Of a stretch of DNA of 23,231 nucleotides, positions 9,385-23,231 are shown in pieces (the stretch's first letter is position 1; each line of letters starts with the position of its first letter). Under the pieces are notes generated by a model. The model worked only from the letters and a program-made list of their open reading frames with translations. It had not been told where the DNA came from and did no database searches. Position numbers and translations under genes: made by a program. This DNA comes from a virus. Where the stretch lies: the IMG/VR virus record IMGVR_UViG_3300048837_000243, positions 1 to 23,231 of that record; one strand, written 5' to 3'.

Positions 9385-10037
9385 CAGGCAGCTGCTCTGC
9401 CAGCGCTTCTCCGGCTACCCGTCGCCGCAGGCGCCGGCGTGTCTTCCGTCGACGCAGGCTCAGGACGGGTCATCTCCTGCATCAGCGCCATCATCTCCTT
9501 CAACTGCTCTTTGAGCTCCGCATTGTCCTGTTCGAGCTTGGCCATCCGAGCAGCGTCGCCGGCGGTCGTCTCGGCGGCGAGGAACTTCTTCGCCAGATCC
9601 CGAAGAGCGAGGGCGTTGGCAAGCCCGGTCTTCATGATGACGATGTCCGAGGCGTTGGCCACCTCCTCGATCGAGGTCAGGCCTGACTGCTTCAGAACTG
9701 CCGCCTGGGCCGGCGTCACAGCGGGCCAAGCGCCCAGCGGCGTGCCGCTCTCGGGCATGGCATTGTTCTTCTTCCAATGATCGTAGTCCGGCTGGACGCG
9801 CTGCCAGAGCTTGAGAGCAATCAGCGACGCGATATTGTCGCCGCACTCCTCGAGCGGCCGGACCTTCATCATCTTGCGGACTTCGCGGATGATGACCGTC
9901 TTGCTGTCGCCCTGCGGCGAGTACGTGATCACATCGAACTCTTCGAGTTCGCCAGTCGATGATGAGCGGCGGTAATGCGTCTCGAAGCCGTGGATCTTGA
10001 TCGCGATGTCGTTCTTGATCTGGATGTCGGAGCTCAT
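9384..10037 (-). CDS. Unassigned coiled-coil protein of the structural operon
   Basis: 217 residues from ATG 10037, chosen over an upstream in-frame start at 10088 because GAGG sits five bases before it and the upstream extension would run through a strong hairpin. The first 75 residues look beta-rich (DIAIKIHGFETHYRR, SKTVIIREVRKMM). Residues about 105-150 carry SGTPLGAWPAVTPAQAAVLK and SGLTSIEEVANASD, the latter like a helix-hairpin-helix turn. Residues 165-200 form a clear coiled coil (AKLEQDNAELKEQLKEMMAL). The C-terminus is Pro/Ala-rich and disordered. Proteins of this build occur near the capsid gene in related phages, but I cannot name a function. Confidence 0.65.
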   Translation of the reverse strand: MSSDIQIKNDIAIKIHGFETHYRRSSSTGELEEFDVITYSPQGDSKTVIIREVRKMMKVRPLEECGDNIASLIALKLWQRVQPDYDHWKKNNAMPESGTPLGAWPAVTPAQAAVLKQSGLTSIEEVANASDIVIMKTGLANALALRDLAKKFLAAETTAGDAARMAKLEQDNAELKEQLKEMMALMQEMTRPEPASTEDTPAPAATGSRRSAGRAAA

Positions 10038-19280: not shown

Positions 19281-20266
19281 CGCGAATTCCAGTTCTTCAG
19301 CAACACGCGCTCGGCCTCTGTCAGCCGAGACTTCCTCACGTTCGGAACACCGCCACTCGCCAAATCACGCTGCCCTGCGCGATCGCGGTCGTACTCTCCG
19401 AACAGCCGAGCCAGCACCGCGCACGTCGTGATGATCGCCCCATGCGATACGCCCACCTGCCTGCGCGCGTCGCTCGTGCCGCCGTAGATCTTGCCGAACT
19501 CCTGCATCGTCAGCGGCGCGTCCCGACCAGGCGGCGAGGCCTGCAGGATGAAATTCGATGCGATCGTCTGTAGCGTTCGCGGGAGACCATTCCACACAGC
19601 CTTGAACTCGATCGACGCCTGCAGCTGGTCGTCACGGATTGGCGGCCGAGAACCGGGAACGCCGCCCGTGGTCCGATCATAGCCTGTGGTCTTCGGCTGG
19701 TTGGTACGCACGTCGAAGGCAATGCGCAGCCGCTCAGCGGCGGCGTAGGCGTCCATTGACAGCTGTGGACGCACGGCGTCGACCGGCCACAGCACTCGGT
19801 ACCGCGGCCCGCTGAGAGGGCTTTTGTCAGCCTCTGCCAGCTCTTGCTTCGGCGCCTCGTCGAGCTTGCGCTCGCGCTCCTTCGTCGGTGCCGCCAGAGG
19901 CGCCGGCGGCGCAGGACGGCGCTCGAAGCGCTTCAAGACCTCCCGATGGGCCTTGGTGTTGTTCGGTGCGCGCTCGAGCCGCCGGCGCGCTTCCTCGACC
20001 TTGTCGAGCTCCATCCGCCCGTCCCGCACGCGGTCGCGCAGGTTGGCCGTGATCTTCGCCGAACGCTCAGCCCGTCGCTCGAGCTTGGCCTTGATCACAT
20101 CCCGCGCCGATGACACCAGGCGCCCGACGTCGTAACCCGCCTCGATCAGACACTCGTACGCTTTCTGCCGCAGCACCGCCGCCGAGCTCGTCTGCAGCTC
20201 CTCGATGCGCTCGACAAAGGCCGATGGGTTGAACTCAGGCGGCTGGTACTCATCGTGCAGTGACAT
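19277..20266 (-). CDS. Unassigned early protein with coiled coil (329 aa)
   Basis: 329 residues, ATG 20266, six bases after the methyltransferase stop. Residues about 15-120 are highly charged helix, probably coiled coil (DVIKAKLERRAERSAKITAN, KVEEARRRLERA). A Pro/Ala linker (about 118-150) leads to a C-terminal domain: SMDAYAAAERLRIAFDVRTN, GLPRTLQTIASNFILQ, then VSHGAIITTCAVLARLFGEY. That C-terminal layout loosely recalls the DUF6456-type proteins of Alphaproteobacteria, some of which are DNA-linked regulators; the resemblance is weak. It may act in replication or regulation since it lies among such genes. Function unknown. Confidence 0.65.
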   Translation of the reverse strand: MSLHDEYQPPEFNPSAFVERIEELQTSSAAVLRQKAYECLIEAGYDVGRLVSSARDVIKAKLERRAERSAKITANLRDRVRDGRMELDKVEEARRRLERAPNNTKAHREVLKRFERRPAPPAPLAAPTKERERKLDEAPKQELAEADKSPLSGPRYRVLWPVDAVRPQLSMDAYAAAERLRIAFDVRTNQPKTTGYDRTTGGVPGSRPPIRDDQLQASIEFKAVWNGLPRTLQTIASNFILQASPPGRDAPLTMQEFGKIYGGTSDARRQVGVSHGAIITTCAVLARLFGEYDRDRAGQRDLASGGVPNVRKSRLTEAERVLLKNWNSR

Positions 20267-20929: not shown

Positions 20930-21421
20930 TCACCGATCCAACACAGCCGCTATCAGATCATCCCGGATGATCACCGTCACGATCGACGACAGCAGCTCGC
21001 TGGGCGTCGTGCCGCGATACTCCGCCGCCGTTACCAGCGTCCACATCTGATCCGGCGTCAGCTCCGTCGTCAGAACCGATGCACCGTCCATGAAGGGATG
21101 CACCATCGCGCGCGCCTTGGCGCGATCGAAGATCAGCCGGAGCTCGTCCACAATCGACGACGAGATCTCCAACGGGTTGCGCAGCATTGCGATGATGGTG
21201 CTGTGATCGCGGCCGCCCAGCGCGCGGCCAATCTCCGGAAGGGAGAAGCCAAACTCGCGCGCTACCTGCGCAAACATCTTCCGAGCGTGAACCTCGTTGC
21301 CGGATCTGTTCCGCCCAGCGAGGCGCGTCTCGGTGATCCCGTTGAGGCCCGCCACGCGCTCCGCCAGAACGCGCAGGATGTCGCGCCGGGCGGCCGAGAC
21401 CTTGGGCGGGAGCGGCTTCAT
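20930..21421 (-). CDS. Free-standing DnaA domain IV (DNA-binding) protein
   Basis: 163 residues, ATG 21421, overlapping the ParB-like stop as ATGA. Residues about 44-82 match DnaA domain IV: VHARKMFAQVAREFGFSLPE, then IGRALGGRDHST, which is the DnaA signature recognising the DnaA box. Domains I-III, including the AAA+ ATPase, are absent: full DnaA is three times longer. The C-terminal 80 residues are helical and unrelated to DnaA as far as I can see. The product could bind DnaA boxes in phage or host DNA, either helping phage initiation or competing with host DnaA. DNA-binding is well supported by the motif; the outcome is inference. Confidence 0.85.
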   Translation of the reverse strand: MKPLPPKVSAARRDILRVLAERVAGLNGITETRLAGRNRSGNEVHARKMFAQVAREFGFSLPEIGRALGGRDHSTIIAMLRNPLEISSSIVDELRLIFDRAKARAMVHPFMDGASVLTTELTPDQMWTLVTAAEYRGTTPSELLSSIVTVIIRDDLIAAVLDR

Positions 21422-22269
21422 TCAGCAGCCTCGCGCGCGCCTTGGGCCAATATCTCGGCCAGCCGCTGTCTCAACATCCCGGTGAAGATGTCGAGCTGAC
21501 TCACGCGCTTCTTGGTTGCCTCGATCGACGCGGTCGCCACCATGCCCGCCAACGAAACGTCTTCCATAGCCAACAGGAGATCGTCTCGGCGATGCACCAG
21601 CGACGGAGGTCCAGCGACGATTGACACCATCGCCTTGATGACGACCGAGCGCAGCATTCCGGCATTCCCCCCCCTTGTGCGGGTGATGCCCTCCAACGCC
21701 ACGGTGACAATCTTCGCGTGATGGGCGCGTAGGGCTTGCTCGATAGAGCCGATCGCAAGCGTTTCTCCCGGCTTATAGGCCTCGGTTTGCCCCTTGGCCT
21801 TCAGCACAGTCACACCGGCGGCATCCATCACAGCCTGCACCTGCTGCGCCCATTGTTCGCCACTGGCCAAGCGCGCGAACCAGATCTGACCGAGCGTCAT
21901 CGCCGTCACGCGGCCGTTGATCGCTGCAAAGCAGCTGGCGGCCGTAGCGACGTCGTTTGCCTCGATCACCATGCACGGCACCATGTCGACGTCGGGATGC
22001 ATCATCGCCGCAGTCGCACGATGCTGGCCGTCGATGATCGCGTACTTGCCGTCCTCCACCCGCGTAACGATCAGAGGCGCGAACTTCCGCCAGTCGAAGC
22101 ACTCGAGGATCTGCAGGATGTTGCGCTTGCCCGCCGGCGTGATCGGCCGCTGATAGCGATCGTCGACAACCAGGCGCTCGATCGGCAGCATGACGAGCTC
22201 CGCGCGCCGACCAATGTCGCGGGCCGGGCGAATGTCGACGCCTAGATCAAGGTGCTTCAGATGGCGCAT
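21418..22269 (-). CDS. ParB-type nuclease-domain protein
   Basis: 283 residues from ATG 22269, one base after the GapR-like stop, with AGGAG (22276-22280) six bases upstream. An in-frame start at 22500 would add 77 Ser/Arg-rich residues read through the upstream gene, so it is rejected. The ParB N-terminal domain is seen as PIERLVVDDRYQRPITPAGK (29-48), LIVTRVEDGKYAIIDGQHR (66-84). The DGQHR box corresponds to the ParB/Spo0J GERR/GxHR site. Residues 90-140 (MVPCMVIEANDVATAASCFA) complete the domain; the C-terminus is helical. ParB-domain proteins bind or cut DNA and many use CTP. A G8 run (21667-21674) lies inside. Role here is unknown, but it likely acts on phage or host DNA. Confidence 0.8.
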   Translation of the reverse strand: MRHLKHLDLGVDIRPARDIGRRAELVMLPIERLVVDDRYQRPITPAGKRNILQILECFDWRKFAPLIVTRVEDGKYAIIDGQHRATAAMMHPDVDMVPCMVIEANDVATAASCFAAINGRVTAMTLGQIWFARLASGEQWAQQVQAVMDAAGVTVLKAKGQTEAYKPGETLAIGSIEQALRAHHAKIVTVALEGITRTRGGNAGMLRSVVIKAMVSIVAGPPSLVHRRDDLLLAMEDVSLAGMVATASIEATKKRVSQLDIFTGMLRQRLAEILAQGAREAAE

Positions 22270-22270
22270 G

Positions 22271-22591
22271 TCAGGCTCCTGGCCGGCTTTCGCGCGTTGA
22301 TGATGCCTTCGCTTCCTGCTCGATCCGCCAGTCGTCGAGCGGAGTACCTTCCATGCCCAGCGCGTGCAGATAGATCGCGAGGATCGCGTCCTCCTCCTCG
22401 CGCTCCGCTTTTGACTGCTTCCGGATTTTGAGTACCAAACGGATGATCTTCGGGTCGAAGCCCATTGCCTTGGCTTCAGTGAACTTGTCGGTGATGTCAC
22501 CAGACAAGGCTTTCTTCTCCTCGCCTAGTCGCTCGAGCGACTCGACGATCTGACGAAGCTGTACCTGCGCTGATGCCTGTAACGCGCTCAT
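22271..22591 (-). CDS. GapR-like (DUF2312) nucleoid-associated protein
   Basis: 106 residues from ATG 22591, chosen by ATGA overlap with the upstream gene; the in-frame start at 22717 would run inside that gene. The core LRQIVESLERLGEEKKALSG, then DITDKFTEAKAMGFDPKIIR, then LVLKIRKQSKAEREEEDAIL, AIYLHALGM is the GapR/DUF2312 family in full. GapR of Caulobacter is 89 residues; it wraps overtwisted DNA, stimulates topoisomerases and favours replication and transcription ends. A 20-residue Ser/Glu tail is extra. Phages of Alphaproteobacteria often carry it. The likely job is to handle supercoiling at the phage fork or to disturb the host nucleoid. Confidence 0.88.
   Translation of the reverse strand: MSALQASAQVQLRQIVESLERLGEEKKALSGDITDKFTEAKAMGFDPKIIRLVLKIRKQSKAEREEEDAILAIYLHALGMEGTPLDDWRIEQEAKASSTRESRPGA
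22276..22280 (-). promoter_or_regulatory. Ribosome binding site deciding the ParB-like start
   Basis: The minus strand reads AGGAG six bases before ATG 22269, inside the 3' end of the GapR-like gene. It sets the ParB-like start against a longer upstream in-frame ATG. Confidence 0.7.
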
Positions 22592-23231
22592 GCCGCTGCT
22601 CCCGTCTCTTTCGGCTTCGTCGGCCACATGGTGCGGACCTGCAGGACGCCGGCCCTGCGAGCGACCGCGGCCAGCTGAGGTTCGTAGCGATCGAGGTGAT
22701 CGAGCCAGCGGTGCCACTGCGCGCTGCCCGGCTTCACGACGATGCGCGCACCGGCCTTGATCGCCGTCGCGATCGCCGTTGCGAGACGCTCGGCCTTGAC
22801 GACCTTCACGTCCGCCTCGAGCACATCGCGGGCCGCGCGGTCGAGCGCTTCAGGCTCCAGGCCGTTGGCGCGCCGACCGAGCTCGGTCAGCGTCGCGAGC
22901 TTGTCCGCTGTGCTCAGCCGGCGCTGATCGAGGATCGGTCGGAAAACACGTTCGATGACGTCGACGCTGACGCCATTGGCAAGGACGCGACCGAGCAGTG
23001 CGCTGATGCCCTTTTCGTCATCCTCAAAATCGCGCTTCTTCCCCCTCTGGGGGTAAGGGGGAATCGGCGCCTGTCGGCGAAAGTCGGTACGCGCGTGCTC
23101 TATATACGGGGGGTGTTCCGCATGCGGGACAGAGGTGTTCCCGCCATCGGAACACCCCTGTTCCCTGGGGGGAACACCCCCACCGGGGGGGAGTGTTCCC
23201 TCCGCGGAACACCCCTCGGCGTCTGGGGGTG
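22588..23231 (-). CDS. Probable replication initiator, 5' end outside window
   Basis: The frame is open from the window edge (23231) to TGA 22588, at least 213 codons; the start is not in the window, and the GTG at 22824 is only an internal candidate. The visible part begins with a Gly/Pro/Glu-rich linker (about 40 residues, encoded by the iteron-like array) and then two helical segments: KGISALLGRVLANGVSVDVI, RLSTADKLATLTELGRRANG and a C-terminal VVKPGSAQWHRWLDHLDRYE with TMWP near the end. A G-S/T-x-Q-W-x-x-W motif before a Trp-Pro C-terminus is common in phage replication proteins that have an N-terminal helix-turn-helix. Linker plus repeats recalls lambda O. The call is by context and this partial pattern. 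Confidence 0.5.
   Translation of the reverse strand, partial: PPDAEGCSAEGTLPPGGGVPPREQGCSDGGNTSVPHAEHPPYIEHARTDFRRQAPIPPYPQRGKKRDFEDDEKGISALLGRVLANGVSVDVIERVFRPILDQRRLSTADKLATLTELGRRANGLEPEALDRAARDVLEADVKVVKAERLATAIATAIKAGARIVVKPGSAQWHRWLDHLDRYEPQLAAVARRAGVLQVRTMWPTKPKETGAAA
23110..23215. repeat. Iteron-like array of GGAACACCCC copies in both directions
   Basis: GGAACACCCC is exact at 23149-23158, 23171-23180 and 23206-23215; the inverse GGGGTGTTCC is exact at 23110-23119, and near copies are at 23132-23141 and 23190-23199, with a partial copy near 23155-23165. Centres are 16-22 bases apart. Several pairs face each other as hairpins (23134-23141 with 23149-23156; 23192-23199 with 23206-23213). 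The array lies inside the presumed initiator gene, at its linker, as in lambda O. It is a candidate replication origin. Confidence 0.75.

Follow-up and report, generated by a model that had tools for sequence, protein, structure and literature searches.

Results

The window that we analyzed is a complete virus record of 23,231 bp, and the repeats of interest lie at its extreme right end. There, an open frame on the minus strand (22588..23229) holds the 3′ part of an initiator gene, 213 codons that encode a linker and then a C-terminal domain. On the right, the contig stops before the frame does, and the N-terminus is therefore absent from the window. A first-pass annotation had placed the missing part to the left; since the gene is on the minus strand, its 5′ portion is to the right of the window instead. 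The visible 213 amino acids match no Pfam or PHROG family, Phage_rep_O (PF04492) included, with the N-terminal part lying off the contig, and the C-terminal domain fits no named family. Searching for close relatives of the C-terminus returned none, either by exact peptide scan (0 in viral contigs, 0 in 85k genomes) or by tblastn (0 in phage or plasmid records).

Directly after the initiator, on the same strand, is a gene for a GapR-like DNA-binding protein (22271-22591; GapR_DNA-bd, PF10073, E 1.5e-26), which points to an alphaproteobacterial host. Two more minus-strand genes were inspected: a ParB_N/DUF6551-like gene (21418-22270), about 0.8 kb downstream of the repeats, and a gene for a small protein that has DnaA domain IV but lacks the ATPase part (20930-21421; Bac_DnaA_C, E 4e-12). 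Among the genes scanned in the window, these three included, we recognized neither a helicase nor a loader for one. Phages of several hosts carry relatives of the ParB-like gene (33 phage records), and a lone DnaA-C gene like that of the window is also present in Sulfitobacter phage phiGT1. Relatives of the locus sought in viral contigs through the ParB-like neighbor were not found.

The repeats fall at 23110-23215, within the linker-coding part. The first-pass annotation had reported at least six copies or near-copies of a 10-mer in both orientations, and of GGAACACCCC/GGGGTGTTCC we recovered four copies that are exact and two that carry one mismatch. GGAACACCCC is exact at 23149, 23171, and 23206 on the plus strand and GGGGTGTTCC at 23110; the one-mismatch copies start at 23132 (GAGGTGTTCC) and 23190 (GGAGTGTTCC), and a seventh, partial half-site, TGTTCC, is at 23159. 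Elsewhere in the window, the 10-mer at up to one mismatch has one copy, at 19344. The 7-mer core occurs 6 times in these 106 bp, against about 0.017 expected. The array is better described as four hyphenated dyads, TGTTCC-N6/7-GGAACA, than as 10-mers. These unstranded dyads are D1 (23114..23131; TGTTCC-GCATGC-GGGACA, in which the right half, GGGACA, is degenerate), D2 (23136..23154; TGTTCC-CGCCATC-GGAACA), D3 (23159..23176; TGTTCC-CTGGGG-GGAACA), and D4 (23194..23211; TGTTCC-CTCCGC-GGAACA). They are 18, 19, 18, and 18 bp long, with centers 22.5, 22.5, and 35 bp apart.

Such an arrangement does not arise readily by chance: none of 2,000 dinucleotide shuffles gave three nonoverlapping dyads with one shared 6-bp word in 131 bp, and the rest of the window, taken in pieces of 131 bp, never scored three same-word dyads. 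The predicted single-stranded fold of the array, at −42.1 kcal/mol versus −25.4 kcal/mol for shuffles (z −5.6), is as strong as a set of inverted repeats would lead one to expect. A tandem-repeat artifact was rejected, as spacers and orientation vary among the copies.

Homologues of the initiator were then found outside the viral contigs. Among 398 genomes of a single phylum, we retrieved one relative, L159, a full-length protein of 331 amino acids from a bacterial genome, with a C-terminal domain 32% identical to that of the window (E 2e-11). The N-terminus of L159 carries an HTH_36 domain (E 1e-9) of the replication-initiator type and matches PHROG "replication initiation" families. A two-row profile search in related genomes added L163 and L166, clear homologues that share one genome, and a weaker one, L164. 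These prophage initiators have the C-terminal domain in common with the window, and they too carry dyads in the linker: TGTCCA-N6/7-TGGACA about 21 bp apart in L159, two GTGCCG-N8-CGGCAC in L163, and five GGGTCC-N7-GGACCC about 23 bp apart in L164; in L166, the iterons are degenerate, with GGTCCA as the half-site word. None of the four words (TGTCCA, GTGCCG, GGTCCA, and GGGTCC) is that of the window. Judging from these alignments and repeats, the initiator group keeps the place and geometry of the linker dyads, while the linker peptide and the repeat word vary.

The domains of L159 and the dyads in homologous linkers support the earlier suggestion of a candidate origin with iterons in the linker of an initiator gene. 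The accompanying idea, that DNA rather than peptide is conserved, holds in part: the peptide is not kept and the dyad layout is, but the repeat word is not. The expectation that relatives would keep the 10-mer itself failed, since the homologues carry other words. Lambda, P22, and phage L are described in the same way: their initiators are distantly related, and the iterons inside the genes (gene 18 in P22 and phage L) differ from one phage to the next (PMC8022706). The change of word does not speak against an origin, since a private set of iterons is what one expects of every initiator (PMC8022706).

We also tried the 10-mer as a shared motif and rejected it: most of what the pattern scans returned was chance dyads or arrays without relation to this one, and no match had the window's word in a relative of the initiator gene. 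Two arrays from viral contigs deserve mention in their own right. In L131 (IMGVR_UViG_3300044960_000212), eight GGTGTTCC/GGAACACC half-sites at 577-770 lie both within and immediately ahead of the beginning of a helicase-like phage gene; this may be an unrelated origin whose word is almost that of the window. L089 (IMGVR_UViG_2861618822_000003) has an iteron-like cluster at 9451-9633, where about 180 bp hold twelve half-sites of the GGAACA/TGTTCC type; it translates as GTPGTP, VPGVPG, and EHREHR in several frames. In the terminase-related Bradyrhizobium ppBeUSDA76-2 and Sulfitobacter phiGT1, the stretches that we inspected showed no clear array of iterons.

Arms of 6 bp with a spacer of 6 to 7 bp are also typical of sites for dimeric repressors, and several such dyads two helical turns apart could form an operator cluster, serving transcription control by the helix-turn-helix protein or another phage regulator rather than replication. 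We consider this improbable. The dyads lie deep within a coding frame, not at a promoter; in the homologues, the linker again holds an array, although the word is new; and the annotated origins of P22 and lambda share this place and plan.

Downstream of the dyads on the coding (minus) strand, 46 bp from the array, is a second element that lay outside the first-pass finding. This C-tract element (23039..23063) reads TTCCCCC-TTA-CCCCC-AGA-GGGGGAA and is predicted to form a hairpin (z −4.2). C-tracts of matching form follow the dyads in three of the four prophage homologues (L159, L163, and L166; L164 is without one), and another is present in the O-like gene of Stenotrophomonas phage BUCT708.

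To follow the element without bias toward known relatives, we scanned the viral collection with the pattern TCCCCCTNACCCCCN{2,6}GGGGGA, taking the reversed pattern as the control. The scan returned 112 stretches, versus 1 for the control. By rough k-mer clustering, 111 of 113 sites fall in 34 protein clusters, 25 of which we judged, by the domains they contain, to encode replication initiators. One "replication initiation O-like" PHROG is matched by at least 16 of the 35 members scanned, and the Pfam matches of the genes include Phage_rep_O, HTH_36, DUF1376, DnaD_N, and Phg_2220_C. Most C-tract sites are inside phage initiators, and these belong to unrelated families. Across 29 initiator genes, the element occupies all three reading frames (13, 8, and 8 cases), an argument for conservation of the nucleic acid rather than of the peptide. 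Its orientation is sense with respect to the gene in every initiator cluster found.

The strict pattern gave no match in 398 bacterial genomes across the phylum (control, 0), so the C-tract is not a common chromosomal repeat. With a relaxed pattern, 4 of 249 genomes of one order matched (control, 0), all four in prophage initiators. Two of these matches were homologues already known by protein from the same order. The other two were found blind, and both are prophage initiator-like genes, one of which (L293) has GGTGAC-N6-GTCACC repeats.

The 40 bp before the element are more AT rich than the gene in 29 of 29 cases, with means of 65% and 46%. Many of the initiator genes have short-period AT-rich repeats within this stretch (for example, TTCTTCATC, GATGAAGAT, and AAAGACAAT), reminiscent of DnaA-trios or of repeats bound as single strands by initiators. 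The window is the lowest of the 29 genes examined, with 35% AT in these 40 bp against 32% for the gene. Its spacer between the iterons and the C-tract (23064..23109, unstranded) is the place expected for an unwinding element and includes CTATATA; at only about 35% AT, versus the 65% mean of the C-tract genes, a typical DNA-unwinding element is not evident.

Of 24 genes directly downstream of C-tract-bearing initiators, a small sample in which related phages are not independent, 16 match DnaB_C. This hints that the C-tract element may be linked to helicase loading. An initiator of a Vibrio phage, L173, adjoins a DnaB-like helicase gene and is without the C-tract.

The same 24 downstream genes bear on whether the dyads could be a partition site, a centromere for the ParB-like protein encoded at 21418-22270. 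Sites of the parS type are inverted repeats, and the ParB_N/DUF6551-like gene is only some 0.8 kb away, but a ParB-like match was found in just 1 of the 24, and no ParA was identified among the genes scanned. ParB-type sites are not expected in an initiator linker with a private word for each initiator, and the arrays of the homologues go with the initiator gene. A centromere is therefore very improbable.

The C-tract also marks a well-studied phage. The annotated rep_origin of P22 (841-985 of L296) ends exactly at CCCCCTTACCCCCTAAAGGGGG (964-985), and the element thus belongs to a classical phage origin. This bears on another reading, in which the hairpins work at the mRNA level, in attenuation or in the control of translation, with no protein on the DNA. 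Strong predicted folding of both the array and the C-tract hairpin would suit such an RNA element, as would the uniform sense orientation of the C-tract. Among homologues, though, loops and arms differ freely while the spacing stays close to two turns of the helix, in keeping with protein-DNA phasing, and the C-tract of P22 is within a DNA origin. The hairpins are not followed by the T-run that a terminator needs, and a terminator was rejected on that ground. We regard an RNA element as highly unlikely.

Discussion

The array at 23110-23215 very probably serves a podovirus-like phage as its replication origin, which follows the lambda/P22 plan and lies within the gene for the phage's own initiator. 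According to this model, the encoded protein, presumably of the winged-helix type, would bind the four dyad iterons as dimers, one dimer per dyad. Dimers bound about two helical turns apart could assemble into an O-some-like complex and strain the neighboring DNA toward the C-terminal coding part. Strand opening would then follow in the DNA that separates the iterons from the C-tract. The replicative helicase would be loaded at the opened region, near the C-tract, whose hairpin probably delimits that region or keeps its edge in place. Helicase loading is our best guess for the role of the C-tract, because P22 and many relatives have a DnaB-like helicase gene adjoining the initiator.

The C-tract may have wider reach than the origin of one phage. 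We propose that C5-TNA-C5-N2-6-G5 is a general, so far unrecognized cis-acting origin module, placed where the AT-rich region ends on its far side, in unrelated initiator families and in any frame. It may be a structure for the strand border or helicase loading, such as a hairpin, possibly with the second C or G tract folding back as a triplex. We hold the chances of this proposal to be about even. Among openly accessible papers, we found none that treats the C-tract as a general feature and none with CCCCCTAACCCCC in a phage context. The element deserves further work. As a marker of initiator genes across unrelated families, it is a larger gain than the probable origin of the window. If it acts in helicase loading or strand opening, it provides a general and easily tested handle on the start of temperate-phage replication, together with a simple motif to locate origins in unannotated sequence. 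The dyads carry a message of their own: origins of the lambda/P22 type keep dyad geometry and place and change the recognition word, so that metagenomic phage origins should be predictable from linker dyads alone.

How the window compares with known origins also decides what is new in it. The first-pass annotation was right in substance, but the novelty it claimed, inverted iterons unlike the same-direction iterons of lambda, is wrong. The four iterons of lambda O are inverted repeats of 18 bp, and an O dimer binds to every one of them (PMC6022878); in the lambda sequence we find them as four annotated 18-bp inverted repeats inside O. Since the lambda iterons are themselves dimer-bound inverted repeats, the 10-mers facing both ways in the window are halves of lambda-like sites, a likeness rather than a contrast. 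In both phages, four hyphenated inverted repeats of about 18 bp, some 20 to 23 bp apart, lie in the initiator linker, and all four dyads of the window are inside the open frame 22588-23229. The iteron words differ. Lambda has a clear AT-rich region by its iterons and no C-tract, whereas the window has a C-tract and no AT-rich tract adjoining its iterons, CTATATA aside. For helicase loading, lambda uses the P loader.

EBPR podovirus 2, with a terminase that resembles that of the window, has an initiator-like gene, gp8, with iterons in the linker. Unlike those of the window, they are direct 14-bp repeats, AAACCCGGAATGAC, and gp8 has neither dyads nor a C-tract element.

The resemblance to P22 gene 18 extends to the second element. 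In both, mid-gene iterons are followed by a C-tract, CCCCCTTACCCCCTAAAGGGGG in P22 and CCCCCTTACCCCCAGAGGGGG in the window, where C5-TNA-C5-Nn-G5 spans 23041-23061. P22 has an AT-rich stretch before its C-tract, whereas that of the window is AT poor, and a DnaB-like helicase gene (gene 12) adjoins P22 gene 18 where the window has the GapR-like gene. The window very probably holds another origin of the lambda/P22 type, with a second element that is apparently general.
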